Positions 1 through 21,090 of a stretch of DNA of 22,902 nt are shown here, one piece after another. The notes below the pieces were generated by a model. It was given only the letters and a program-made list of their open reading frames with translations, did no database searches and was not told the origin of the DNA. The position numbers were made by a program, and so were the translations under genes. Where the stretch lies: the IMG/VR virus record IMGVR_UViG_3300027917_000180, positions 1 to 22,902 of that record. The stretch is one strand, 5' to 3'. Numbering within the stretch: the stretch's first letter is position 1; each line of letters opens with the position of its first letter. This stretch comes from a virus.

Positions 1-568
1 CTTTCCTTGTCTGTTCCGATATATTTTCTACTTCCCGCAATTTCAATATTTCATCTGTTCTCAGATGGTAGTCTTCCAGTTCGCTATCCTTTACTACCAT
101 CAACCTAGGCTCAAATACCATATCGGCATACTTTTTCATGAAGGACATGGTTGCATCAATATTCTTTCTATGTACAACAATCCTATATACAATGTTGAGG
201 TTTTCATTTTTGTAGTACCAAGACATTCTGGTATCGGGCGTTATTTCTTTGGCAAAATGGTAGTTATAACGGATAGCGTTATACTTCTCATGTAGCCCCC
301 TCTCAAACCATTTTCCATTCGTTGATACTACTATTTCAAAGCCCCCAAGATATTTCCATAGGGTGTCTATATATGTAATGGGTAGAAGCCCCGGCTCACC
401 ACCTGTTATACAGAATCTTTTTATATCATCTCTCTCTTTACAACACTCTACTATGAAAGGCACATATATATTCATCAACCCATAGTCTTCTCCTTTGGGA
501 GCAAACCTGTGGTCACAGTAGCTACATTGCCAGTTGCATTTATCTGTTGTGTATAGTGTTATCTCCAT
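1..568 (-). CDS. Radical SAM enzyme, 3' end cut by window edge
   Basis: Partial gene; 189 codons are visible and the frame stays open to base 1. The N-terminus carries the radical SAM [4Fe-4S] motif CNWQCSYC (Cys11, Cys15, Cys18), followed by ITGGEPG, the SAM-binding GGE motif, and a STNG strand. Members of this family reductively cleave S-adenosylmethionine to start radical chemistry; the substrate is unknown here. The ATG at 568 overlaps the end of the sulfotransferase gene by 29 bases, and no strong ribosome site precedes it, which fits translational coupling. It shares the motifs VHRKN and LRTDE with the two radical SAM genes at 1417-2331 and 2309-3133, so the three look like paralogs. 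The C-terminal half, which would show any auxiliary cluster, lies outside the window. Confidence 0.9.
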   Translation of the reverse strand, partial: MEITLYTTDKCNWQCSYCDHRFAPKGEDYGLMNIYVPFIVECCKERDDIKRFCITGGEPGLLPITYIDTLWKYLGGFEIVVSTNGKWFERGLHEKYNAIRYNYHFAKEITPDTRMSWYYKNENLNIVYRIVVHRKNIDATMSFMKKYADMVFEPRLMVVKDSELEDYHLRTDEILKLREVENISEQTRK

Positions 569-1442
569 ATTTGTACCATGTGTAGAAATCGTTTAGATTT
601 TCCATTATGTATTTGTTCATGTACTCTACGGCTTCTTCACCAAGTTCCTTTTTCCATCTCCCCGGCCCACCTTCTCTAACCTTGTATGTGTCTTTATTCT
701 TTCCATCACCGGATAATCCCCAATTGTTTCCCCAACTCATTTTGCAGTATAGTTGCATTTTTTTGAACTTGCAGAAGTTCAGTGTTTCAGCCACCATGTC
801 TTCATCTATTTCTACACCCATGAATCCTATAACTCTAATCAATTCACGTTTTATATCGTATACCATGTCTTCATATCGTATCCAATCAACGCTAGAAAAT
901 ATGTTAGAGTTTTCTACCCACAGGTTGTATGCCTTCACGCAGGACATCAGAGAACCAAGGTCATAGCGAACAAATTCATCTATCGTTCCGTCAAACGGTG
1001 TTGTCATCAGGTTCAAATTTTTGCCTTCACGTAGAGCCTTTTTTACATTGTAGTATGCAGCAGATTTTGATGGTGGTGTATACACATTTTCAAACCCAAA
1101 ATTTCTGTAGTAGTACGCACTTACCACAACATCTCTTGGGTCTCTTATCAGGAACATTACTTCTCTGCCTTTGAAGAAACTACGATCAAATTGTATCATG
1201 TTACATGGAACCCACCAACCCAGAGTAGAATGTATAACACATGGTATATGGCGTATATATCCCTTGTCATAGAGCAATTGCCAAAAATCCCACGACCTGT
1301 ACATATAGAACTTTTCCTGATCGAACATAACGGAGAAGTATTTACCCAATAGAAATTTCAACCATGTTCTCCCTGTCTTGGGAAACGTCTCTATTATTCT
1401 TATGGGTATGTCCGGTCTATTCATCCCCATGTACTGTTCCAT
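540..1442 (-). CDS. PAPS-dependent sulfotransferase (Sulfotransfer_1 type)
   Basis: The 300-residue product has the length and motif order of cytosolic-type sulfotransferases, which move sulfate from PAPS to a hydroxyl or amine. The 5'-phosphosulfate loop is TFPKTGRTWL (residues 19-28). The 3'-phosphate segment is LIRDPRDVVVSAYYY, with Arg100 and Ser108 at the same eight-residue spacing as in animal SULT enzymes. The C-terminal REGGPGRWKK (256-265) matches the RKGxxGDWK loop that closes over PAPS. His71 is a possible catalytic base. The start at 1442 follows GGGAG at good spacing and overlaps the upstream radical SAM gene by 26 bases. The acceptor is unknown; neighbouring sugar-related genes favour a glycan, but a protein tyrosine or small molecule cannot be excluded. 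Confidence 0.9.
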   Translation of the reverse strand: MEQYMGMNRPDIPIRIIETFPKTGRTWLKFLLGKYFSVMFDQEKFYMYRSWDFWQLLYDKGYIRHIPCVIHSTLGWWVPCNMIQFDRSFFKGREVMFLIRDPRDVVVSAYYYRNFGFENVYTPPSKSAAYYNVKKALREGKNLNLMTTPFDGTIDEFVRYDLGSLMSCVKAYNLWVENSNIFSSVDWIRYEDMVYDIKRELIRVIGFMGVEIDEDMVAETLNFCKFKKMQLYCKMSWGNNWGLSGDGKNKDTYKVREGGPGRWKKELGEEAVEYMNKYIMENLNDFYTWYKYGDNTIHNR

Positions 1443-2331
1443 TTGTCTCCCTCACCAATGAGTTGTGCAAGTAGTAATCAAAATATTTGAAGAACTCGTT
1501 GCATGACAAACAAGCCTTGTCATTCTCAGAATTTTGAAAAGCATCAAATTTCATGGCTCTTTTGAAATTTTCTTCACACAGGTCTATTTTGTCTGTATAT
1601 TTCCTGCTTATAGGACATCTCATTATCTGCTTGGCAGCAAAATCAAATGTTGGATGTATCTGGGCATTCCCGCAGTGCTTACGTTGTATCTTCAGATTTT
1701 CTTCATCTAACATCCACATTCTGAATGCTAAGTTTTTTGACCCCGGCTCAACATTGGGTATATCACAAATTTCTTTGTATAATGCCAGATAGTCATCTTT
1801 CTGAAATCTATATGCTTCATCAAAATATGTCTTCTCATGAACAGGCATTATGGTAAATTTGAAATCTGGATTTGTTTTTACTACTTCCGCTATTTTCCCA
1901 AGATTCTTTTTATGCACTGGTTGAAAGATGTCTATCTTGTCATCTGGTTCTAACTTATGTATTATATACTCTAAATTCTCTATATCCACCGTTGGGTGAT
2001 ATCCAACCCACTTTATTTTGTCATAGTACTTATCAAAATATCCATTGCCTATGAATGTTCCGTTGGTGTTGACTCTGACATCGTGGCATGGTTTTACTTC
2101 GGTGAATATGAAATGAAGGATATCAGAGTCAACTAACCCCGGCTCACCACCTGTTATAGTGATGTTCTTAGCAAAATCGTCTCTCCCGTTCAGAAGCGGA
2201 AAATACTTCTCCAATAGTTCTTTGTCAGTATCCTTCTGATCCTCTATCTGTCCTATGTCACAGTAGAAGCAATTCATGTTACACTTCTCTGTAAGGAACA
2301 TGACTATTCTATATGCGGCTAACGTTCTCAT
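1417..2331 (-). CDS. Radical SAM enzyme with C-terminal Cys cluster
   Basis: The 304-residue protein has the radical SAM motif CNMNCFYC (Cys17, Cys21, Cys24), the SAM-binding ITGGEPG and the VNTNG strand. The C-terminal third has cysteines spaced like a reduced SPASM or twitch region: HCGNAQ, then MRCPISRKY, then LCEENFK and CLSC. These could bind an auxiliary Fe-S cluster. The substrate is unknown. It is a paralog of the downstream partial gene and of 2309-3133, sharing YHP, PVHKKN and the GGEPG context. The chosen ATG at 2331 overlaps the upstream gene by 23 bases and has no clear Shine-Dalgarno. Met11 is an alternative start that still leaves the cluster intact. Confidence 0.9.
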   Translation of the reverse strand: MRTLAAYRIVMFLTEKCNMNCFYCDIGQIEDQKDTDKELLEKYFPLLNGRDDFAKNITITGGEPGLVDSDILHFIFTEVKPCHDVRVNTNGTFIGNGYFDKYYDKIKWVGYHPTVDIENLEYIIHKLEPDDKIDIFQPVHKKNLGKIAEVVKTNPDFKFTIMPVHEKTYFDEAYRFQKDDYLALYKEICDIPNVEPGSKNLAFRMWMLDEENLKIQRKHCGNAQIHPTFDFAAKQIMRCPISRKYTDKIDLCEENFKRAMKFDAFQNSENDKACLSCNEFFKYFDYYLHNSLVRETNGTVHGDE

Positions 2332-3133
2332 TTACTATATCATTGAATCCTTTCACACAATGGTAGCAGGTACTACACAAATCGGTTTTTTCAAACTTCA
2401 AGCTACCCCCTATGAGCGTTTTGAAGCTCTTCTCTGTCAGCTTGACTTTTGCTGCTCTCTCATGACTACACACGCATTTGTCTATAGTCATGTTTACCAG
2501 ATCAAGGGAAATATCCCAATCAGCAACAAAACACAGGGTTCTATATAAGTCCATCAGTTGTTCCATCTTCACCGCTCGTTCAAGTATATTCAGGGAAGAC
2601 ACGTTTCCCCTTCTCCTTGCAACATCGACTATATACTCAAGGTCTTCGGGTCTCAACAGGTAGTCTTCATCCAATTCGCTTTTATGATCATAGGGAACCA
2701 GATGAAAATTTATGTCTCTATATTTTTCAAGGAACTCTCCCAATTGTAGATGATTTTTCCTATGCACTGGTATATGGTATATAACATTTTCATAGAGTTG
2801 TTCTATGTCTTCTGTTATTTCGCTGACAGGATGATATTGGATTTTTACTTCTGATAACAATTGTGGGTATTTCTTCATGAACAGACCATTTGTGTTCACC
2901 TGTATTTCTCTTCCCTTCAGTTCGTTCAACATAGTGGTAAATGTTTTTAGCTGCAACATTCCTGTCTCACCACCTGTCAGAATGATCTTTTCAATGTCTG
3001 TCTCTTTGATCAACCCACAATACTTCTTGATTGTATCAACCCGTGCCGTTCTACGCTTACCTAATTTGCTGATGTCACAATAGCTACAATTTCTATTGCA
3101 TCTCTCCGTCAGAAACAATGTTATCTTTTTCAT
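2309..3133 (-). CDS. Radical SAM enzyme with C-terminal Cys cluster
   Basis: The 274-residue protein starts almost directly with the core: LTERCNRNCSYC (Cys12, Cys16, Cys19), then LTGGETG and VNTNG. The motif has Thr where its neighbours have Pro (GGET rather than GGEP), a tolerated variation. The C-terminus has KCVCSHE and CSTCYHC, suggesting one auxiliary Fe-S cluster. YHPVSEI and PVHRKN are shared with the adjacent paralogs. The start at 3133 forms an ATGA overlap with the stop of the gene before it, after GGAG at good spacing, so translation is probably coupled. The reaction and substrate cannot be told from the sequence. Confidence 0.92.
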   Translation of the reverse strand: MKKITLFLTERCNRNCSYCDISKLGKRRTARVDTIKKYCGLIKETDIEKIILTGGETGMLQLKTFTTMLNELKGREIQVNTNGLFMKKYPQLLSEVKIQYHPVSEITEDIEQLYENVIYHIPVHRKNHLQLGEFLEKYRDINFHLVPYDHKSELDEDYLLRPEDLEYIVDVARRRGNVSSLNILERAVKMEQLMDLYRTLCFVADWDISLDLVNMTIDKCVCSHERAAKVKLTEKSFKTLIGGSLKFEKTDLCSTCYHCVKGFNDIVNENVSRI

Positions 3134-3948
3134 AATATCTCCAATATCCTGTCGTTGTCGTTGTATACCATCTTCTCTTCTATTATTTCTCTTGGTATAT
3201 ATATATCTTGATCGAAATTGTCATCGATGCCAAATTTTTGTAGGTAAAATGTGAGACCATCATCAAAGGTCTTATTCTTTGCGGAGTATCTAACCATCTT
3301 TCCTATGTATCTAAATTCAAAAATAAGCTTACCAATATTTTCTACGTATACATCAGGAGCGATAGCAAACCATCTGTTATAAACTAATTCTCTGAATCTA
3401 TGTGGCAACTTGTCGAACCCATCCTTCGTTCTCTTTGTGCGCCTTATATCTTCAACAGTAAGAACATCATCATCTTCTCCCATCTTGCTTTCGATAAAGT
3501 CCAATCTCTGCTTACTGAACCGATGATAGTATTCTGTGAAATCTAAGAAGTATTTCCCCGCCCATTCATTAGACTTGTTACCCAATAGTATTGAATTATC
3601 AGGAACGTTTTTGAAATAATCCTTCTCCGTTCCGGTGTATTTTGATATTGCTAATCCCGTAGCGTCAAGGAATATCGCTCTGTTGCATTCGATCTTATCG
3701 CTTGATTTTGTAAGTGTATCGGTTGAAGTTATGACAACATCTGATTCAACCACTTCCTTTCCCATCTTTACATTATCCAGTTTGATTTTCGGAAAGTTGT
3801 TTTTCATGACCCTGTAGGTATGATAGAAATCGTCAGTGTGTACAACAAACTTCGTTTCAAACTTATCTTTCAGAAATAGGTATAGATCGATTATGGAAGT
3901 AAATGTTCCTGATACAACACCCTTATGTATGTAGTATAGTGTTACCAT
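3130..3948 (-). CDS. Putative GT-B-like glycosyltransferase paralog
   Basis: A longer frame opens at 4026, but the better start is the ATG at 3948 (MVTLYYIHKG). It overlaps the previous stop by seven bases, matches the tight packing nearby and gives 272 residues. No catalytic motif is certain. The N-terminus alternates hydrophobic strands and helices (GTFTSIIDLYLF, then KFVVHTDD) like a Rossmann domain. The C-terminal part (GKLIFEFRYIGKMVRY, then DDGL) aligns by eye with ESLMMNKKIIYDN plus DG in 5490-6389 and EAIQYKKEVIIP plus DG in 7207-8067. Those resemble the donor-binding E-x-x-x-x-x-K segment of GT-B enzymes. This protein and 5490-6389 both end in an acidic stretch and IL. I infer a diverged, possibly inactive, glycosyltransferase relative. 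Confidence 0.6.
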   Translation of the reverse strand: MVTLYYIHKGVVSGTFTSIIDLYLFLKDKFETKFVVHTDDFYHTYRVMKNNFPKIKLDNVKMGKEVVESDVVITSTDTLTKSSDKIECNRAIFLDATGLAISKYTGTEKDYFKNVPDNSILLGNKSNEWAGKYFLDFTEYYHRFSKQRLDFIESKMGEDDDVLTVEDIRRTKRTKDGFDKLPHRFRELVYNRWFAIAPDVYVENIGKLIFEFRYIGKMVRYSAKNKTFDDGLTFYLQKFGIDDNFDQDIYIPREIIEEKMVYNDNDRILEIL

Positions 3949-4514
3949 AAAAGCTCTTCTACTGGTATTCTCTCTGATCCGTAAAATTCTTTGAACCCAT
4001 ATTTTCTCAAAATACCACGCATCCAATCCTCTTCATGATTGAACGGAAAGCAATATATTCTGGGATGGTTATTGAACCAATGGTAAAACCTGAAAAGCAT
4101 TCTTTCTGTGTCTATCATGAATTTTTCGATCTTCAGTGCTTTACTGGTTTTTGGAAGGTTCCGATAGTGCTTTGTGTTTCTGACATCTATGTGTTTGTGT
4201 CCATGTCCACCCATTTTTGCAAAACGATCAAGCATCCAGTTTGCTTCTTCCACTGATATATACCCGCTTAGATCACCATCTTCTCCCATCTTCCTTGCTT
4301 CAACAGCGGTTAGATTTTCATTTTTATCATTTCTATATGGTCGTAAAAATCCAGTAGATATAAAAAATATCTTTTCAGTGTTTAGCCTTCTTATTTCATC
4401 CCAATAGTAGAATTGGCTGTAGAGACCATCATCAAATGTAAGTATGTAATTTTCCAATGGTAGTGATAATATTTCTTCGGTTACTTCATGAATCATCAAT
4501 ACGTCTTTTGACAT
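3942..4514 (-). CDS. NodB-like polysaccharide deacetylase (CE4 family)
   Basis: The 190-residue protein has the NodB homology motifs in order. LTFDDG (residues 25-30) is motif 1, with the catalytic-base and metal-binding aspartates. GGHGHKH (102-108) gives the His-x3-His metal pair at His104 and His108. RIYCFPFNHE, near residue 155, sits where motif 3 lies. CE4 enzymes remove N- or O-acetyl groups from chitooligosaccharides, peptidoglycan or exopolysaccharides with a divalent metal. There is no signal peptide or membrane segment, so it would act in the cytoplasm on a precursor. It is at the short end for the family. The start at 4514 overlaps the upstream radical SAM gene by 29 bases with only a GA-rich leader; Met7 is an alternative. 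Confidence 0.82.
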   Translation of the reverse strand: MSKDVLMIHEVTEEILSLPLENYILTFDDGLYSQFYYWDEIRRLNTEKIFFISTGFLRPYRNDKNENLTAVEARKMGEDGDLSGYISVEEANWMLDRFAKMGGHGHKHIDVRNTKHYRNLPKTSKALKIEKFMIDTERMLFRFYHWFNNHPRIYCFPFNHEEDWMRGILRKYGFKEFYGSERIPVEELLW

Positions 4515-5493
4515 TCTCTTTTATATCCTTCCATTTCATGTTTGAAATCTTCCTATACTCGCTTATATCATACCGTGGCACTCTCACATCACAACAATTC
4601 CCTATTCGACAAATCACGCATTTCTTTTTCATTGCTTCTTCTCTTTTCTTCACATCAAAAAAGTCTGTTTTTTCTTCGTGTAGAACACATGGTTTTATTT
4701 CTCCGTTAGAGGTTATTGATATATTGGAATCGTAACACAAACATACCCATGTTTTTTTCTTGCCTACTTCTGTCACAAGCAGTTCTGTTCTTGTTATGCC
4801 ATCTATTCTATCCGGTGAAACATTTTCATAAAGGTACTCTTCACCGTCTTTATACATAATCACATACCCACCCTCCGCACCATCTTCAAAATTGGGTTCC
4901 AATCCTTCTGCTACCCACGGTCTCTGAAATATCTTCGATGGGATGCAATCTATATTGTATTTGCTTGTGAATGCTTTATATTCTTCCACACACATAGGAG
5001 TGTTTATCATAAATGCCACTGGATAGAATTGCCCACCATACTCCTTCAATTCCGTTATTCTTCTACCCATAACATCATAGTCAAAAAACTCTCTATGGTA
5101 TGATATAAAGAAACGCAGTTCCGGTTTTGTATTCCTACATATATCAATCAGTGTTTTGTAGTAGTCTACGCTCTTGGTAAGATTGGTGCTTATTTCTATC
5201 CTACCAGACCGGTCATTTTTATTATACCCATCAACCAGTTCTTTTACTACTTTTCTGAAGCCCCGGTATGTGGTTGGTTCCCCCCCGGTTATTCCTGTAT
5301 CCAAGTAATCTGTTTTTATAGTGGGTATCCATCTTGCTATTTCTAAAGCCTTCTCCACCGGCAACACGGGAGCATAATTATTATGTGAACCACAATAGTC
5401 ACAATCGAAATTACATTTCTCCGTTATTCTCCAAACGACACTATATGATTTTTTGTCGAGATATGACTTCTTTGCTGTCAGAACCTTTTTCAT
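4486..5493 (-). CDS. Radical SAM enzyme with SPASM/twitch-like tail
   Basis: The 335-residue protein has a 26-residue N-terminal extension before CNFDCDYC (Cys27, Cys31, Cys34), then ITGGEPT and a STNL strand. The C-terminal region reads like a SPASM or twitch domain: WVCLCYDS, NGEIKPCVLHEE and CVICRIGNCC supply seven cysteines for one or two auxiliary clusters. SPASM-type enzymes often act on peptides or carbohydrate-linked substrates, but none can be named here. The start at 5493 forms an ATGA overlap with the upstream gene. It is flanked by a glycosyltransferase-like gene and a deacetylase, which leans toward a sugar or glycoconjugate role; that is inference only. Confidence 0.92.
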   Translation of the reverse strand: MKKVLTAKKSYLDKKSYSVVWRITEKCNFDCDYCGSHNNYAPVLPVEKALEIARWIPTIKTDYLDTGITGGEPTTYRGFRKVVKELVDGYNKNDRSGRIEISTNLTKSVDYYKTLIDICRNTKPELRFFISYHREFFDYDVMGRRITELKEYGGQFYPVAFMINTPMCVEEYKAFTSKYNIDCIPSKIFQRPWVAEGLEPNFEDGAEGGYVIMYKDGEEYLYENVSPDRIDGITRTELLVTEVGKKKTWVCLCYDSNISITSNGEIKPCVLHEEKTDFFDVKKREEAMKKKCVICRIGNCCDVRVPRYDISEYRKISNMKWKDIKENVKRRIDDS

Positions 5494-7210: not shown

Positions 7211-8067
7211 AAAACTTCTCCTTTTATCCAATCGTTCATTCCTATATACCATATTCTGTCTAATTTGTACACGAATCCAGACTCAAAAATTTTGTTGTAG
7301 AACGAACGAAAATTCTCCCAATCAAGCAACGATATATCGTCTTCTATGCAGTCAATTATATCATCAATTCCATCTTTGAAACTTCTATCAAGTTTCGGTA
7401 TAATTACTTCTTTCTTATATTGTATGGCTTCATACAAGCTTGTAGGAAACGGGTCAACAAACTTATTTGACATGGGGTACACATAATGGGTGATGTTGCT
7501 GAAGAATTCCTTGTTATCGTATGTGTGTTTATAATCGACAACGTTGTTGTACTGTTGCACTTCCGGTGCATCATTACCCATAAGATACACATCCACTTCT
7601 TCACCAAAATTCTCAACTACTTCACAAAACTTCCACCACGCATCCCATATCAGGTTCTTACGTGCGTAGTATCCAAGCACGGGTCTTTTTGGTGTCACGT
7701 GTTGTATTTCTTCTACTTTCGGCAAGATGGGTATGTAGTATTTTATGTCACAATTGTTTCTATAGTAGTGAAAACCATTTGTGCATGATTCATATATGCT
7801 ATGGTTGTGTTCTGACCTTATGAATATAACGTGTCGAGTGTTTATAAGCCTTGTTATGTTTACAGGAAAGGTGTATTTGAAAGGCATCTGGGTTAGGAAT
7901 ATAATCTTGTCATAATCATTTTTCAACCTTTCGGTTGTTACAATTTCAACATACTCTTCTTCCAGATGATCAATATAATTGGGGAACATTCTATGCAAGT
8001 TCTGTGCAGTAGTATATGCTCCCCGTTTTGTGTTTTTATATCTGTGGGCTACAACAGCATATCTCAT
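7207..8067 (-). CDS. Glycosyltransferase, GT-B fold
   Basis: The 286-residue protein has a two-lobe pattern. The N-terminal lobe begins MRYAVVAHRYKNT and contains KIIFLTQ and VIFIRSEHN strands. The C-terminal lobe starts near RPVLGYYARKN, continues with VDVYLMGND, and holds DPFPTSLYEAIQYKKEVIIP, which matches the E-x7-(E/K) sugar-nucleotide donor site of GT4-like enzymes. Enzymes of this type transfer sugar from a nucleotide sugar to a glycan, lipid or protein; some phages use them to modify DNA or host surface polymers. There is no membrane segment. The start at 8067 forms an ATGA overlap with the upstream gene; the Shine-Dalgarno is weak, suggesting coupling. It is the clearest of three related proteins in the island. 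Confidence 0.75.
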   Translation of the reverse strand: MRYAVVAHRYKNTKRGAYTTAQNLHRMFPNYIDHLEEEYVEIVTTERLKNDYDKIIFLTQMPFKYTFPVNITRLINTRHVIFIRSEHNHSIYESCTNGFHYYRNNCDIKYYIPILPKVEEIQHVTPKRPVLGYYARKNLIWDAWWKFCEVVENFGEEVDVYLMGNDAPEVQQYNNVVDYKHTYDNKEFFSNITHYVYPMSNKFVDPFPTSLYEAIQYKKEVIIPKLDRSFKDGIDDIIDCIEDDISLLDWENFRSFYNKIFESGFVYKLDRIWYIGMNDWIKGEVL

Positions 8068-8657
8068 TTTGGATTCTCTATACTTTCGAAAAAATCACTT
8101 ACCGCTCTGTTTATTTCTTTCCCTGCCGTTGCGGATTCTATTGCTCTGCTGCTGTCTTCGTATTTTGTATAAACCCAACTTACTGAGCTTGCTCTGTCTC
8201 TAAGCTCAAGATATGTTTCCAACTCGCTTATGAGTTGATCGTTTTCGGTGTCAATAATTTTCAGATATTGTTCTTCTCTGTTCTCATCGGTTATAAAGAA
8301 CCCACGATCAAGCAATCTCATATGTATGACAAAAAACCGGTAGAATTCAAGTGCTGAAAATGCTGCCATGTGACCATCTACCTTCGATCTTATTTTGGCA
8401 ATGGCAACCCCTTTTGCAACCGTCAACGGATCGGTCTCGTTTATTATCAAATCCATCGGTATAATTTCTCTTTCAACACCTTTTGGTATCAAAACTTCCG
8501 ATCCCTTTTTTAGCTCTTCTCTTATTTTCTCTGCACACAAGGCAGATATCTTTATGTGATTGCGCCCCGGCTCAATGAAAGCCATGTCACTTTTCCCGAC
8601 ACTGATCGCTCTGTAAGAGCCACCCAAATCTTTTACTTCTGTCACATCATAGATCAT
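8064..8657 (-). CDS. Unknown phage protein after S74 chaperone gene
   Basis: I do not recognise this 197-residue protein. The first half is mixed alpha/beta with a long amphipathic segment (KISALCAEKIREELKKG). The second half is strongly helical and charged (residues about 130-195), likely coiled-coil. There is no signal peptide, membrane segment or cysteine cluster; there is a single Cys. Its ATG overlaps the stop of the S74 chaperone gene as ATGA, after GGAGGAT, and its own stop overlaps the glycosyltransferase start. Position just after the tail-fibre chaperone suggests a fibre assembly or attachment role, but this rests on context only. Confidence 0.75.
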   Translation of the reverse strand: MIYDVTEVKDLGGSYRAISVGKSDMAFIEPGRNHIKISALCAEKIREELKKGSEVLIPKGVEREIIPMDLIINETDPLTVAKGVAIAKIRSKVDGHMAAFSALEFYRFFVIHMRLLDRGFFITDENREEQYLKIIDTENDQLISELETYLELRDRASSVSWVYTKYEDSSRAIESATAGKEINRAVSDFFESIENPK

Positions 8658-8926
8658 TTGTCACATCCTCCCACGCTTTCTTCCAATTTATCTACTTTGC
8701 CTGATAGCTCCTGAATTGCTTTTGTTAGAAGTGCAATGAACTGTATATAGTTTACCATTTTATATCCACCCGCACCCTCATGTACAACAGCATATTCATC
8801 GATTGGAAATTCTTCTTCTAAATCCTGTGCTATGAATCCAAAGTGTTTTTTCCCACCGTCTCTTATTATTTCTTCATCGTACTTGAATTCACACGGCTTC
8901 AATTTCTTCACAATTTCTAAACTCAC
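8654..8926 (-). CDS. Separate peptidase S74 chaperone domain (C-terminal part)
   Basis: The 90-residue product is the C-terminal part of the intramolecular chaperone domain found at the end of many phage fibres and endosialidases. HFGFIAQDLEEEFP is the GLIAQEVE-type core; MVNYIQFIALLTKAIQEL and the following heptads form the trimeric coiled-coil. The domain normally opens with SDxRLK, and that stretch is the very end of the preceding gene (8938-9456). This gene starts with GTG at 8926. AAGGAG at 8934-8939, overlapping the previous stop, lies seven bases upstream and fixes the start. It is therefore a chaperone made as its own polypeptide. An intact fused domain would be the family norm. Confidence 0.85.
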   Translation of the reverse strand: MSLEIVKKLKPCEFKYDEEIIRDGGKKHFGFIAQDLEEEFPIDEYAVVHEGAGGYKMVNYIQFIALLTKAIQELSGKVDKLEESVGGCDK

Positions 8927-8933
8927 AATGTTT

Positions 8934-8939
8934 CTCCTT
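8934..8939 (-). promoter_or_regulatory. Ribosome site inside stop region of fibre gene
   Basis: On the minus strand the stop of the cysteine-rich fibre reads TAAGGAG. The TAA therefore supplies the first bases of a perfect AAGGAG Shine-Dalgarno, seven bases before the GTG of the S74 domain gene. It decides that GTG is the start and that the chaperone part is translated on its own. Confidence 0.8.
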
Positions 8940-9456
8940 ACATATATATTATGTCTTTCTTCAATCTCTTATCTGAAATTAAAATGCCGTAGTTATTGCC
9001 ACAATTGCCGTGACATACACAAACAAGATTTGCACCACAATCGGTATTACATACACAATCTTGTCTGAGTTCATTTATCTTTGTTCTCAATTCGTTTACA
9101 TGAGAAGCAAGAATAGAATCACCAACCACATATGTTGTAGTAATATCTCCTGTAACACTATCACCCGTTTGTGCTACCATTTCATTGATTGAATCTTTTA
9201 GATCGTCTGCGTGTTGTGCTTCTACAAGATCGTCACTATCAACGTATGTTGGAAAATCTGCTGATAGGCCCCTTCTGCTTGTTCTTTCGTTGTCAACCGA
9301 AATTCTGAGAGCGTTTATATGCTCCGCAAGAATCGTGTCTCCTGTTATCAGTGTCGATCCAAAATTCGTTGCATTTGAAGGACAGGCAACAGCGTAAGGC
9401 CCCGCACAACCGTAACTATAACAGTTACCGCTACAAAAACTAGGTGTACAAGCCAT
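8938..9456 (-). CDS. Cysteine-rich tail-fibre tip protein with S74 catalytic stub
   Basis: The 172-residue protein has three parts. The N-terminus is rich in Cys and Gly (Cys3, 8, 12, 17, 25). The middle has about three copies of a repeat like GDxILAxHxNxLR (ITGDTILAEHINALR, DDLVEAQHADDLKDS, VGDSILASHVNELR), a pattern common in phage fibres. The C-terminus has two copies of C-x-C-x3-C (CVCNTDC at 134-140, CVCHGNC at 146-152), then LISDKRLKKD. Ser161 and Lys166 match the Ser-Lys dyad of peptidase S74 self-cleaving fibres, but the rest of that domain is in the next gene. Eleven cysteines in 172 residues are unusual. The gene starts four bases after the SPASM enzyme at 9461-10615, behind AGGAG, making it a candidate substrate of that enzyme (inference). 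Confidence 0.85.
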   Translation of the reverse strand: MACTPSFCSGNCYSYGCAGPYAVACPSNATNFGSTLITGDTILAEHINALRISVDNERTSRRGLSADFPTYVDSDDLVEAQHADDLKDSINEMVAQTGDSVTGDITTTYVVGDSILASHVNELRTKINELRQDCVCNTDCGANLVCVCHGNCGNNYGILISDKRLKKDIIYM

Positions 9457-9460
9457 CTTT

Positions 9461-10615
9461 TTATTCTCCTATAATAATTTCTCTTACCGCTCTATGTATA
9501 TTACCAAAAATTTTGAAGTATGTACATAGATTGCTCTGGTTTGTGTAGTCGTGCCATCTGTCACCAAGTTCTTCCATCTCGCTTAGTTCATACTTTCTGG
9601 CATTACACCGCATACATTTTGTTGCAGGACATAACTCACATTCCAGTGGTTCTACTATTTCGTAAGACATCATCTTTTCTCTGTTTCTTTCGATGTCTCT
9701 TACAAAATTATCACTCCCAATACTAGTTATTTTTAATTCTTCCTTTGTACCATTATATAATACACCGTGACAGAAATAAACTGAGCCATTGATATCAACT
9801 ATCACTAAGTCCTTACCTGCCGTGCAAGCCGGTCTACTTCCGTCAAACCACGTGAACAGAAATCTACCCATTTCCCTATGGAAACCTATCTCTTTCTTGG
9901 CAATAGCAACCATCGATTTCTCAAAGTCCTCTACGTATTCTACTTCCGTTGTGTTTATATAATCAATTGTAGGGCAGTAACCAACCTGATGTTTTGGATA
10001 CCTGTCACACAGTCTTCTGAAATCATCCCACACTTCAGGTATGTATTTGAAGTCTTCTGGAACAACGGTTGATTTGAAGTTTACAGGTAGACCCAGATTG
10101 TAGAACCTGTCTGTGTTTTCCAAAATCTTCTCCGCTGTTTTGTTTCCGAAATTGTCTTTCCGTCTTATATCATGTATAGGCTGTCCGTCATAAGAGAACT
10201 GGATATCAAATTTCTTCTCCTGCTTCAGGATATCATCTATATACCTTTCTATCACGTAGTAAAAAGTATCAACCTGATACCCATTAGAATATATGTGAAA
10301 AGACACTCTTGGGTTTTTCACGTACCTGTCGAGAAGCATTTCTATAATGTCAGTTTTCAGTGTCGGTTCTCCACCCCAATAATCTATCTTCAGACCCTTG
10401 TAGGTATTATTGAACCATTCATCATTTAGCAATTCATCGACACGTTTTACTATCATGTCTGGGTTTCTAATCGTTCCACATTCTTTCTTGTGTTCAAAAC
10501 AATAAGAACAATCCATATTACAAGCCTGAGTCGGTATTATCTCAAGGCCAAAAAATCCACGATTGTTTTTCTCCGCAATTTCTTCTATGTCTTCCCTAAA
10601 TGAGTCTTTATTCAC
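9461..10615 (-). CDS. Radical SAM/SPASM enzyme (anSME-like layout)
   Basis: At 384 residues it has the length and order of SPASM peptide-modifying enzymes and anaerobic sulfatase maturases. The radical SAM motif is CNMDCSYC (Cys32, 36, 39), then YWGGEPTL for SAM binding and FSYDG. The C-terminal SPASM pattern is RPACTAGK, VYFCHG, CELCPATKCMRCNARK and LCTYF, enough for two auxiliary [4Fe-4S] clusters. Such enzymes form thioether, C-C or formylglycine modifications on peptides. The GTG start at 10615 is set by AAGGAG at 10623-10628. Its neighbour, four bases downstream, is the cysteine-rich fibre gene, so protein modification of the fibre is plausible. No sulfatase gene is visible to support a maturase role. 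Confidence 0.92.
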   Translation of the reverse strand: MNKDSFREDIEEIAEKNNRGFFGLEIIPTQACNMDCSYCFEHKKECGTIRNPDMIVKRVDELLNDEWFNNTYKGLKIDYWGGEPTLKTDIIEMLLDRYVKNPRVSFHIYSNGYQVDTFYYVIERYIDDILKQEKKFDIQFSYDGQPIHDIRRKDNFGNKTAEKILENTDRFYNLGLPVNFKSTVVPEDFKYIPEVWDDFRRLCDRYPKHQVGYCPTIDYINTTEVEYVEDFEKSMVAIAKKEIGFHREMGRFLFTWFDGSRPACTAGKDLVIVDINGSVYFCHGVLYNGTKEELKITSIGSDNFVRDIERNREKMMSYEIVEPLECELCPATKCMRCNARKYELSEMEELGDRWHDYTNQSNLCTYFKIFGNIHRAVREIIIGE

Positions 10616-10796
10616 TTAGCAACTCCTTATATTTGTCTATCTCTTCTCTGTCCAAATCCCAATTCTCCACCATAGTCAAATACTTCTCAGCCATGTCCAG
10701 AATCACATCAGAATCTTCGTTGTCTTCGAACTTCAGATATTTTGATGCTTCCAGAAGAAGCAAAGCCGCATTATATAACCTAATCTTTTTTTCCAT
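10608..10796 (-). CDS. Small acidic helical protein between two radical SAM genes
   Basis: This 62-residue product is not recognised. It is acidic, predicted all-helical, with no cysteine, glycine pair or leader-like cleavage site. Its frame overlaps the upstream radical SAM gene by 17 bases and the downstream one by eight, and it has GGAG at suitable spacing before the ATG, so it is a real gene. The downstream gene's AAGGAG lies inside its last codons. It could be a partner or adaptor for one of the two enzymes. Confidence 0.72.
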   Translation of the reverse strand: MEKKIRLYNAALLLLEASKYLKFEDNEDSDVILDMAEKYLTMVENWDLDREEIDKYKELLSE

Positions 10797-11763
10797 GCAT
10801 CATCTCCATCACAATGTTTGCCCATTGGTAATTATCTTTCAGTCTGTGGTTCAGTTGTGTTACCTGCTCATATATTACCTTATATAGTTCACAGAGTTCA
10901 TCAGAAATCCCGTGATCTTTTTCTACCGAATGCCAACACCCACGTTCACAAATGTCTTCTATTATACACCCCTCACATTTTGTATAATATGTTGTGCTAC
11001 TGGTATATATAGGATCGGAACCGTATCTGGCGCACGGTTCCCATCTTCCATTAGGCATATACGCACAATGACTTCCCCCTGCATCACAACCCGCCTTCGT
11101 ACCGTTTCCTACCCAACCATCAATTGTCTTCATCAGGTAGTGCTTTATAATTCCCGGCATACAATTTTCATGCTTATATACAAGTCTTTTTTCGTATTCA
11201 CCACATAGTTTTATAAACTCTTCTTCGAATTTCTTCACGTCATCCATAGACCAGATGTTATCTTTCACTATCTTGAAATCTGGAATCATTTGGATATCAT
11301 TCAGGAAGAATAGATAGTTTCTGGATAGAGTTATTCCTTTTCTATCCGGTGGAATCATGCAGGTAACACCATTGGCTACACTTTTTATCAAATCGGCTTT
11401 CATGAACTGAACAGTGAAACCGGGGTCTTGCCACAGCCCATCAAAAGACCAATTGAACACGATACCAGACTCTTTTATGAAATCCGCTTTCTTCTGTGAT
11501 AATGCAATGCCATTAGATAGAAGATTTATCTTCTTACATCTCTTATCATCTTTGAGGGTATTGTAGATTGTCTTTATAAGGTCGAATTCAAGGAGTGGTT
11601 CACCACCAAATAAATCTATCTCAAACTCATCATAATTTACAAGTCTGTGTTCGTATATCTCTTCCCATTTTTCCTTTGTCATCACTGTATTTTTGTTCTT
11701 CATGTAACAATAATGACAACTTTGATTACACCTCTCTGTCAGTACTAGTTGAATTGTTTGCAT
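10780..11763 (-). CDS. Radical SAM/SPASM enzyme
   Basis: The 327-residue protein opens with LTERCNQSCHYC (Cys12, 16, 19) and has LFGGEPLL for SAM binding, LLSNG and WSFDG strands. The C-terminal SPASM region includes KAGCDAGGSHC, WEPCARYG, CEGC and ICERGCW, consistent with two auxiliary clusters. This layout is typical of enzymes that modify ribosomally made peptides or proteins. It follows a small fibre gene by about 45 bases and starts after GAGGTGAT. It shares overall architecture with 9461-10615 but is clearly diverged from it. The substrate is not known. Confidence 0.92.
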   Translation of the reverse strand: MQTIQLVLTERCNQSCHYCYMKNKNTVMTKEKWEEIYEHRLVNYDEFEIDLFGGEPLLEFDLIKTIYNTLKDDKRCKKINLLSNGIALSQKKADFIKESGIVFNWSFDGLWQDPGFTVQFMKADLIKSVANGVTCMIPPDRKGITLSRNYLFFLNDIQMIPDFKIVKDNIWSMDDVKKFEEEFIKLCGEYEKRLVYKHENCMPGIIKHYLMKTIDGWVGNGTKAGCDAGGSHCAYMPNGRWEPCARYGSDPIYTSSTTYYTKCEGCIIEDICERGCWHSVEKDHGISDELCELYKVIYEQVTQLNHRLKDNYQWANIVMEMMHGKKD

Positions 11764-11808: not shown

Positions 11809-12087
11809 TTAGCTGTATTGTGCTGATGTTGCTGTGCCGTAAAATGTGACTGCATGAACTTCTTTCAATCTCAATGCTGATGTTCCCAGAGTAGTAGTAT
11901 TATCATATATTGGGTCTACAATTAGCTTCTGCCATGAAACCGGCCCACCAATATAAAGTTCCCCTTGCGTTTGATCAAATACTAATCTACCTTCATCTGT
12001 GCTGTCTCCTGAATGTGGATGTAGCGTGATATCTGTAACTCTGTGAACCCAGAACTTTCCTCTCATGTCAATCTTATGAAATTTCAT
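11809..12087 (-). CDS. Short tail-fibre-like protein
   Basis: The 92-residue product resembles the distal repeat region of phage fibres. RLVFDQTQGELYIGG followed by WQKLI is a common fibre beta element. The C-terminus TTLGTSALRLKEVHAVTF then YGTATSAQYS matches the 'LG...RW..vya..F.GtAtsA' repeat that usually precedes an S74 chaperone domain, but here the frame stops. It may be a stand-alone fibre tip or the remains of a longer fibre. AAGGAG precedes the ATG. Confidence 0.72.
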   Translation of the reverse strand: MKFHKIDMRGKFWVHRVTDITLHPHSGDSTDEGRLVFDQTQGELYIGGPVSWQKLIVDPIYDNTTTLGTSALRLKEVHAVTFYGTATSAQYS

Positions 12088-20781: not shown

Positions 20782-21090
20782 CTATCCCCCCACAAGAACA
20801 TTATCGCTTCCGTTTATTATTGTACCAAAAAATGTGCCGGTAAATACCGATCCTATTTGTGCATTGCCTATGCCTTCTGTTATTACAGTGGTTGACCCGC
20901 TTATTATTACTCCTGTATGACCACAATCTCCAATTACTATACTTCCGATCAATCCCATTCCAAGACCGTTACATAGTGCAGAACCAGAACCATTTACTAT
21001 CTGTCCTTGCATTGCTATACACGGTATCGGTGGATGCCCACAACACGTTCCCGATCCTGTATCACCTACTCTCGCTGCTCCTATTCCCAT
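20782..21090 (-). CDS. PAAR-like spike-tip protein
   Basis: The 102-residue protein has GAARVGD at the start, CCGHPPIPC and GDCGHTGVI as likely metal ligands, and repeated Gly-rich short strands (GLIGSIVIGD, IGSVFTGT) that form the sharp beta-cone. PAAR proteins cap the gp5/VgrG spike and are driven into the host envelope on contraction. Its ATG shares a base with the stop of the gp5-like spike gene (TAATG), the usual neighbour. Confidence 0.88.
   Translation of the reverse strand: MGIGAARVGDTGSGTCCGHPPIPCIAMQGQIVNGSGSALCNGLGMGLIGSIVIGDCGHTGVIISGSTTVITEGIGNAQIGSVFTGTFFGTIINGSDNVLVGG

Follow-up and report, generated by a model that had tools for sequence, protein, structure and literature searches.

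A phage gene cassette pairing a SPASM radical SAM enzyme with a cysteine-array tail-tip protein: a candidate system for chemical modification of the virion

In many tailed phages, a small tail protein terminates in a dense Cys array, and its gene nearly always adjoins that of a radical SAM (rSAM) enzyme of the type that cross-links Cys in peptides; chemical modification of the virion tip by the phage itself is therefore probable. The example analyzed here lies in a 22.9-kb virus record (referred to as the window; all coordinates refer to this full stretch), where a SPASM rSAM enzyme (tentatively referred to as rSAM1) is followed by a small Cys-rich tail-tip protein, its putative substrate. Taken as a whole, a virion-modification cassette with a Cys-array tip is the best explanation of this locus, and one in which we place considerable confidence; it is built on the genes observed, their conservation and co-occurrence, the fold of the enzyme, and the position of the array.

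The window has PHROG matches to baseplate and tail genes and contains six rSAM domains, two of which belong to the cassette. The cassette genes and the neighbors described here are all on the minus strand. rSAM1 (384 aa; 9461-10615, GTG start, Pfam PF04055) is separated by four bases (9457-9460) from the ORF of the tip protein (172 aa, 11 Cys; 8938-9456), which has an AGGAG upstream of its ATG start; an earlier note on this DNA had described a SPASM enzyme ending four bases before a Cys-rich protein, and these two ORFs bear it out. A second SPASM rSAM enzyme of the cassette (rSAM2, 327 aa; 10780-11763, PF04055) has homologs adjoining rSAM1 in most relatives, where a second SPASM enzyme is usually found near rSAM1. 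Between the two rSAM genes is a gene for a 62-aa small protein (10608-10796) that is 53% identical to its counterpart in the nearest relative, L012, and weakly conserved beyond it (23-25%); in relatives, an ORF of similar size adjoins either rSAM genes or the gene of the tip protein. Downstream of the tip protein is a phrog_25260 gene (8064-8657, PHROG match), and genes resembling it by eye follow the tip gene in L013, L019, L021, L025, and L035. Ahead of the cassette is a 92-aa tail-fiber-like protein (11809-12087, weak PHROG tail-fiber match), and L012 contains a similar ORF.

Besides the cassette, four more rSAM domains are present in the window at 2-568, 1417-2331, 2309-3133, and 4486-5493, with a sulfotransferase (540-1442) sitting among them (2-5493), and rSAM-rich stretches also come after the cassette in L018, L020, L023, L036, and L090. 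Beside the baseplate hub genes of the window is a small Gly-rich protein with five Cys (20782-21090; CCGHPPIPC), which by eye resembles a PAAR-type spike tip.

The 11 Cys of the tip protein lie in two segments. Five are within residues 1-25 (9382-9456, minus strand), which are partly conserved in relatives, and six form a C-terminal array (residues 134-152; 9001-9057, minus strand) in which C-x-C-x3-C occurs twice, as CVCNTDC (residues 134-140) and, after the spacer GANLV, as CVCHGNC (residues 146-152). The second motif ends eight residues ahead of SDKRLKK, the start of a peptidase S74 domain. The Cys-rich start and the two C-x-C-x3-C copies just before a chaperone site that had been claimed for this protein are in place, and the count of 11 Cys is correct. 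The tip protein is enriched in Cys relative to the overall Cys rate of the window (P ~5e-5) and to the structural proteins of the window (P ~3e-10), and the conservation in relatives, with all six array Cys invariant in a 16-member alignment, is the stronger argument. Across the arrays, the residue following CxC is Asn in 72% and Asp in 17% of cases; the window array contains Cys-x2-Asp once and no Cys-x3-Asp. Neither a C-x-P-x-R sulfatase motif nor a recognizable leader was found in the tip protein. In its AF2 model (pLDDT 62, modest confidence), the Cys ends are unstructured, and folding of the arrays may depend on modification, on metal, or on partner chains. The earlier designation of this protein as a fiber is imprecise, as the model shows a small, mainly helical protein with a three-helix repeat as its core rather than a beta-fiber.

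In the window, the S74 domain is spread over two ORFs (8654-8976, minus strand). The tip protein ends with a 12-residue stub, SDKRLKKDIIYM (8941-8976), which comprises the expected cleavage site and catalytic start and is followed by a stop, and the remainder of the chaperone domain is encoded by a separate ORF (8654-8926) with a GTG start and an RBS (AAGGAG, 8934-8939). This ORF matches Pfam PF13884 with 38.2 bits (cut-off 22) over profile positions 16-54, and this match, together with the SDKRLKK with which the tip protein closes, assigns the two ORFs to Peptidase S74. A frameshift or assembly error at an AT repeat (8941-8950) was considered for the split and rejected, as the domain is likewise split in L012 (51% identical in the enzyme and 54% in the tip), where the remainder has its own start, and many other relatives also stop at the same place, with only the stub SDxRLKxxIxY(L/M/I/F). 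Among the stub-only relatives inspected, no S74 remainder was seen nearby. In the window, the separate S74 ORF is possibly a chaperone acting in trans.

Following the array, distinct array proteins contain either a full S74 domain (19) or an S74 stub (13, plus ~7 close variants), and the others have their own stop or, once, a Hint-like domain (L027); the genes without S74 end at the same position, with CNY or CNYS directly before the stop. Since the array may precede S74, a stub, a stop, or a Hint-like domain, it most simply represents the C-terminal end of the mature protein, and this is probably its role. In L027 (9776-10450 of that contig), the Cys array and the Hint/intein-like domain (subthreshold PT-HINT) are beside an rSAM1 homolog, and this domain perhaps produces an equivalent tip through another kind of self-processing.

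rSAM1 matches the Pfam Radical_SAM model with 52.9 bits (cut-off 29.5) and contains the SAM-cluster motif CxxxCxxC (residues 32, 36, and 39) and auxiliary-cluster Cys at residues 264, 282, 326, 329, 334, 337, and 364; both the cluster Cys and the fold place it in the radical SAM superfamily and among SPASM enzymes. All ten Fe-S ligand Cys and a GGE motif are invariant in 33 sequences that are 22-52% identical to rSAM1 of the window, and, judging from this invariance across divergent relatives, rSAM1 is maintained as an active SPASM enzyme. The solved folds nearest to its AF2 model (pLDDT 92.3) are those of the thioether maturase CteB (Z 28.2), the anaerobic sulfatase maturase anSME (Z 26), and ChlB (Z 25), and Foldseek ranks anSME first with CteB close behind. 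Following an auxiliary Cys, rSAM1 has an invariant His, as does CteB (Cys-His) and unlike anSME (Cys-Asp). As none of the NCBIfam maturase or equivalog cut-offs is reached, rSAM1 represents a new subfamily.

The earlier note had suggested checking whether the C-x-C-x3-C repeats co-occur with this SPASM enzyme across phages, and they do so in both search directions, as do arrays of 7- or 8-residue CNY repeats. A search with a four-enzyme alignment recovered 80 viral loci; an alignment was needed, as the window enzyme alone, used as a single protein, gave no matches in the viral contigs scanned. An alignment of 14 tips proved too divergent for use as a query. A same-strand Cys-array ORF is present at 23 of 27 rSAM1 loci, compared with 8 of the 47 viral loci that have other rSAM genes (Fisher P ~1e-8; P values are indicative only, because the records are related and not independent, the average control contig is shorter, and records may be incomplete). 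L019 was scored as a miss solely because its tip has two CxC, and L024, L032, and L033 are rSAM1 loci without an array.

For the converse scan, an rSAM-blind, codon-degenerate pattern (C-N-Y-x-C-x-C-x-C-N-Y) matched 44 records, in which the reversed CNY pattern has no match. The rSAM1 profile matches 41 of the 44 (36 at E < 1e-78), and the best match is within 5 kb on the same strand in 38. Among the remaining six, another rSAM gene adjoins the array in G034, the motif sits at the contig edge in G005 and G025, and G007, a 43.8-kb fragment encoding a 54-Cys protein, is a true exception. Two motif matches (G023/L115 and G036/L128) were rejected as chance, having no Cys-rich ORF. All five new records from a short-tip scan are positive for rSAM1. 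A second, heptad pattern added ten records, of which six are positive (three of them Campylobacter phages, one known already); in the four without any rSAM, the array is near the downstream contig edge with at most ~1.6 kb of flank. G102 and G103 also have arrays without an rSAM in their fragment. Full-length rSAM1 is absent from all 50 S74-fiber control records chosen without the Cys motif, two of which have a weak rSAM match. Such Cys-rich proteins occurring widely without a nearby rSAM gene, the observation that would have spoken against the pairing, were not found, and the exceptions are in fragments, mostly with the relevant flank cut.

Gene order and array form vary among the relatives. 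Within the full-length clade, the start of the Cys protein is often no more than 15 bases past the end of rSAM1, and at other loci it comes before rSAM1 or a few genes off. The arrays have either a short form (CxCNxDCxCNxVCxCHxDCGCNY) or consist of repeats 7 or 8 residues long (e.g., CTCDCNY and CTCNCNYA), and range from 8 to ~90 Cys per protein, with maxima of 86 beside rSAM1 (L025) and 90 beside rSAM genes of other kinds (L039). When the tip classes (short or repeat) are mapped onto a tree of 45 enzymes, 4 changes are required vs. 17 with shuffled labels, an agreement that fits enzyme-substrate matching and also plain common descent. L102 (4721-7285) combines one rSAM1 gene with four tandem tip genes of 12 Cys each, a possible case of tip diversification. 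Other viral rSAM families are found near Cys-rich proteins (13-81 Cys) with different repeat types in L038, L046, L047, L050, L065, and L067. A scan of bacterial genomes gave mostly chance matches, with the pair only in L273 and L284; L273, which encodes rSAM1 and a 15-Cys protein (461-2171), is a contig of 9.6 kb that was assigned to a Thermoplasmata archaeon by binning but may be viral.

Among cultured phages, all 15 matched Firehammervirus records carry the enzyme (29-30% identity over ~95%) and a 534-aa, 35-Cys protein. In CP220, CPt10, and IBB_35, as in the window, the rSAM1 homolog and the Cys-rich protein are close together (within ~2-3 kb), but the array is internal and there is no S74 domain. 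CP220 and CPt10 encode 11 and 12 rSAM proteins respectively, and a 21-bp DNA repeat lies inside CPT_0180 (Timms et al., 2010, PMC2853527); we found that, in CP220, the annotated repeat and the Cys heptads occupy the same place. The Firehammervirus rSAM genes were published as “metabolic” only (PMC2853527, PMC3322345), and the link between rSAM and the Cys protein is drawn neither in the CP220/CPt10 paper (PMC2853527) nor in the IBB_35 paper (PMC3322345). A tblastn search of cultured phages with the window tip protein and the L016 array gave no match, to which low-complexity filtering may contribute. In phage CP21 (HE815464.1, 78875-80003), the rSAM1 homolog, unlike in its relatives, is broken into two annotated genes with internal stops, and the region of the 35-Cys protein carries a lyase annotation that seems to be wrong.

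We propose that the cassette belongs to a contractile-tailed phage and would modify its virion, with rSAM1, perhaps together with rSAM2, acting on the C-terminal array of the small tail-tip protein encoded next to it. The S74 domain would assist tip assembly and then be cut off just before Ser-Asp, leaving the array as the exposed mature end. It is likely that rSAM1 acts on the array, given the co-occurrence, the intact enzyme, and its fold, and this is further supported because the closest folds (CteB and anSME) act on peptidyl Cys. The most likely chemistry would be sulfur-to-carbon (thioether) links from Cys to neighboring Asn, Asp, Thr, or Tyr, resulting in a rigid, reduction-resistant tip of presumed benefit to the phage, perhaps through hardness, binding, or stability; the hardening or activation of a receptor-binding tip suggested in the earlier note would be of this kind. 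These four residues are acceptors in known sacti- and ranthipeptides. Based on the fold, the Cys-His pair, and these neighbors, a thioether product is plausible, at a little under an even chance. The NCBIfam scores below the maturase cut-offs and the absence of the PapB Cys-x3-Asp motif as such count against the main reading, as do the rSAM1 loci without an array and the arrays without an rSAM in their fragment. On balance, we lean slightly toward a widespread class of tailed phages with cross-linked Cys-array tips, dedicated rSAM maturases, and exposure by S74 (once Hint-like) autoprocessing.

Alternatively, the enzyme could act on the array to yield, for example, formylglycine (the product of anaerobic sulfatase maturation), an epimerized residue, or another C-H change instead of a thioether, with rSAM1 and rSAM2 possibly performing separate steps. 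Two SPASM enzymes per cassette would permit two reactions, and anSME is both the first Foldseek hit and the second-best NCBIfam model; yet the Asp position of anSME is occupied by the invariant His, as in CteB, the tip lacks the sulfatase motif, and dense Cys arrays suit cross-linking better than a single aldehyde, and we consider such a product unlikely. Less probable still is a metal, Fe-S, or disulfide tip, with the rSAM enzymes modifying another virion or host target. Iron-binding HxH needles occur in some phage fibers, the CxC and CxxH-like spacing suits metal binding, C-x2-H repeats are found at some N-termini (L014), and the array is unstructured in AF2, but such a tip leaves unexplained both the conserved Asn/Tyr between the Cys and the strict co-occurrence of array and rSAM, with S74 fibers without Cys lacking this rSAM subfamily.

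The adjacency may also reflect inherited linkage within one tail module with no biochemical link, as the records come from related phages and tip class and enzyme clade agree in the way vertical descent predicts. However, the association persists across enzymes that are 22-52% identical, the array may be before, after, or several genes away from the enzyme, the pair recurs in cultured Campylobacter phages, and other rSAM families adjoin other Cys-rich phage proteins (L010, L038, L047, L065, and L067), all of which make linkage by itself very improbable.

Modification of the virion tip by the cassette, if true, would mean that RiPP-type chemistry is used in building part of a virus particle, to our knowledge the first radical SAM post-translational chemistry in virus-particle construction; our searches of the open-access literature gave no publication that connects an rSAM enzyme of a phage with a tail protein. 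The enzyme would be of a familiar kind and its target of a new one, with a Cys-modifying rSAM system used on a virion part. At least one of the numerous rSAM genes in Campylobacter phages would also gain a role that can be tested, and natural Cys-array scaffolds with matched enzymes would become available.

Among known systems, CteB/SCIFF (PDB 5wgg, 5why) shares with rSAM1 the full-length SPASM fold (Z 28.2), the Cys-His after the auxiliary Cys, and an adjacent Cys-rich substrate (putative here). No separate N-terminal RRE domain is seen in the fold comparison of rSAM1 with CteB, because the alignment starts at CteB residue 91. The ranthipeptide maturase PapB (NF047865) is the best NCBIfam model for rSAM1, with 76.1 bits, far below its 340-bit cut-off; PapB substrates contain Cys-x3-Asp/Glu motifs, which the window array does not match as such, and PapB tolerates spacers of 0-6 (PMC9413430). 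Whereas the partner of CteB or PapB is a short precursor peptide, the partner here is a virion-type protein of 170-530 aa, and instead of the released modified core of a RiPP, the core would be the tip of a protein. anSME (PDB 4k36-4k39) has the same SPASM fold (Z 26) and also acts on a protein Cys, but it has Asp where rSAM1 has the invariant His, its C-x-P-x-R target is absent from the partner, and rSAM1 scores 52.6 bits against its model TIGR03942 (cut-off 349), outside that family.

In the CXXX-repeat systems (enzyme TIGR04115, target TIGR04114), a radical SAM enzyme is likewise encoded beside a Cys-repeat protein. rSAM1 scores 50.4 bits against TIGR04115 (cut-off 350) and falls outside it, and, unlike the CXXX repeats, those of the window type are CxC based and located at an S74 cleavage site. 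L010, a human-gut phage contig, encodes a 22-Cys CXXX-repeat protein (8427-9008; 21.3 bits, cut-off 20) ~0.9 kb upstream of a TIGR04115-like rSAM (9890-11230; 300.6 bits, cut-off 350); because of this pair, some of the CXXX-repeat systems may belong to phage tails. Finally, fibers and spikes with an S74 (endosialidase chaperone) domain share with the window the SDxRLK site and the C-terminal chaperone domain, but, unlike in the usual S74 fibers, the domain is split (window and L012) or reduced to a stub (many relatives), and it is preceded by a Cys array instead of a beta-helix.
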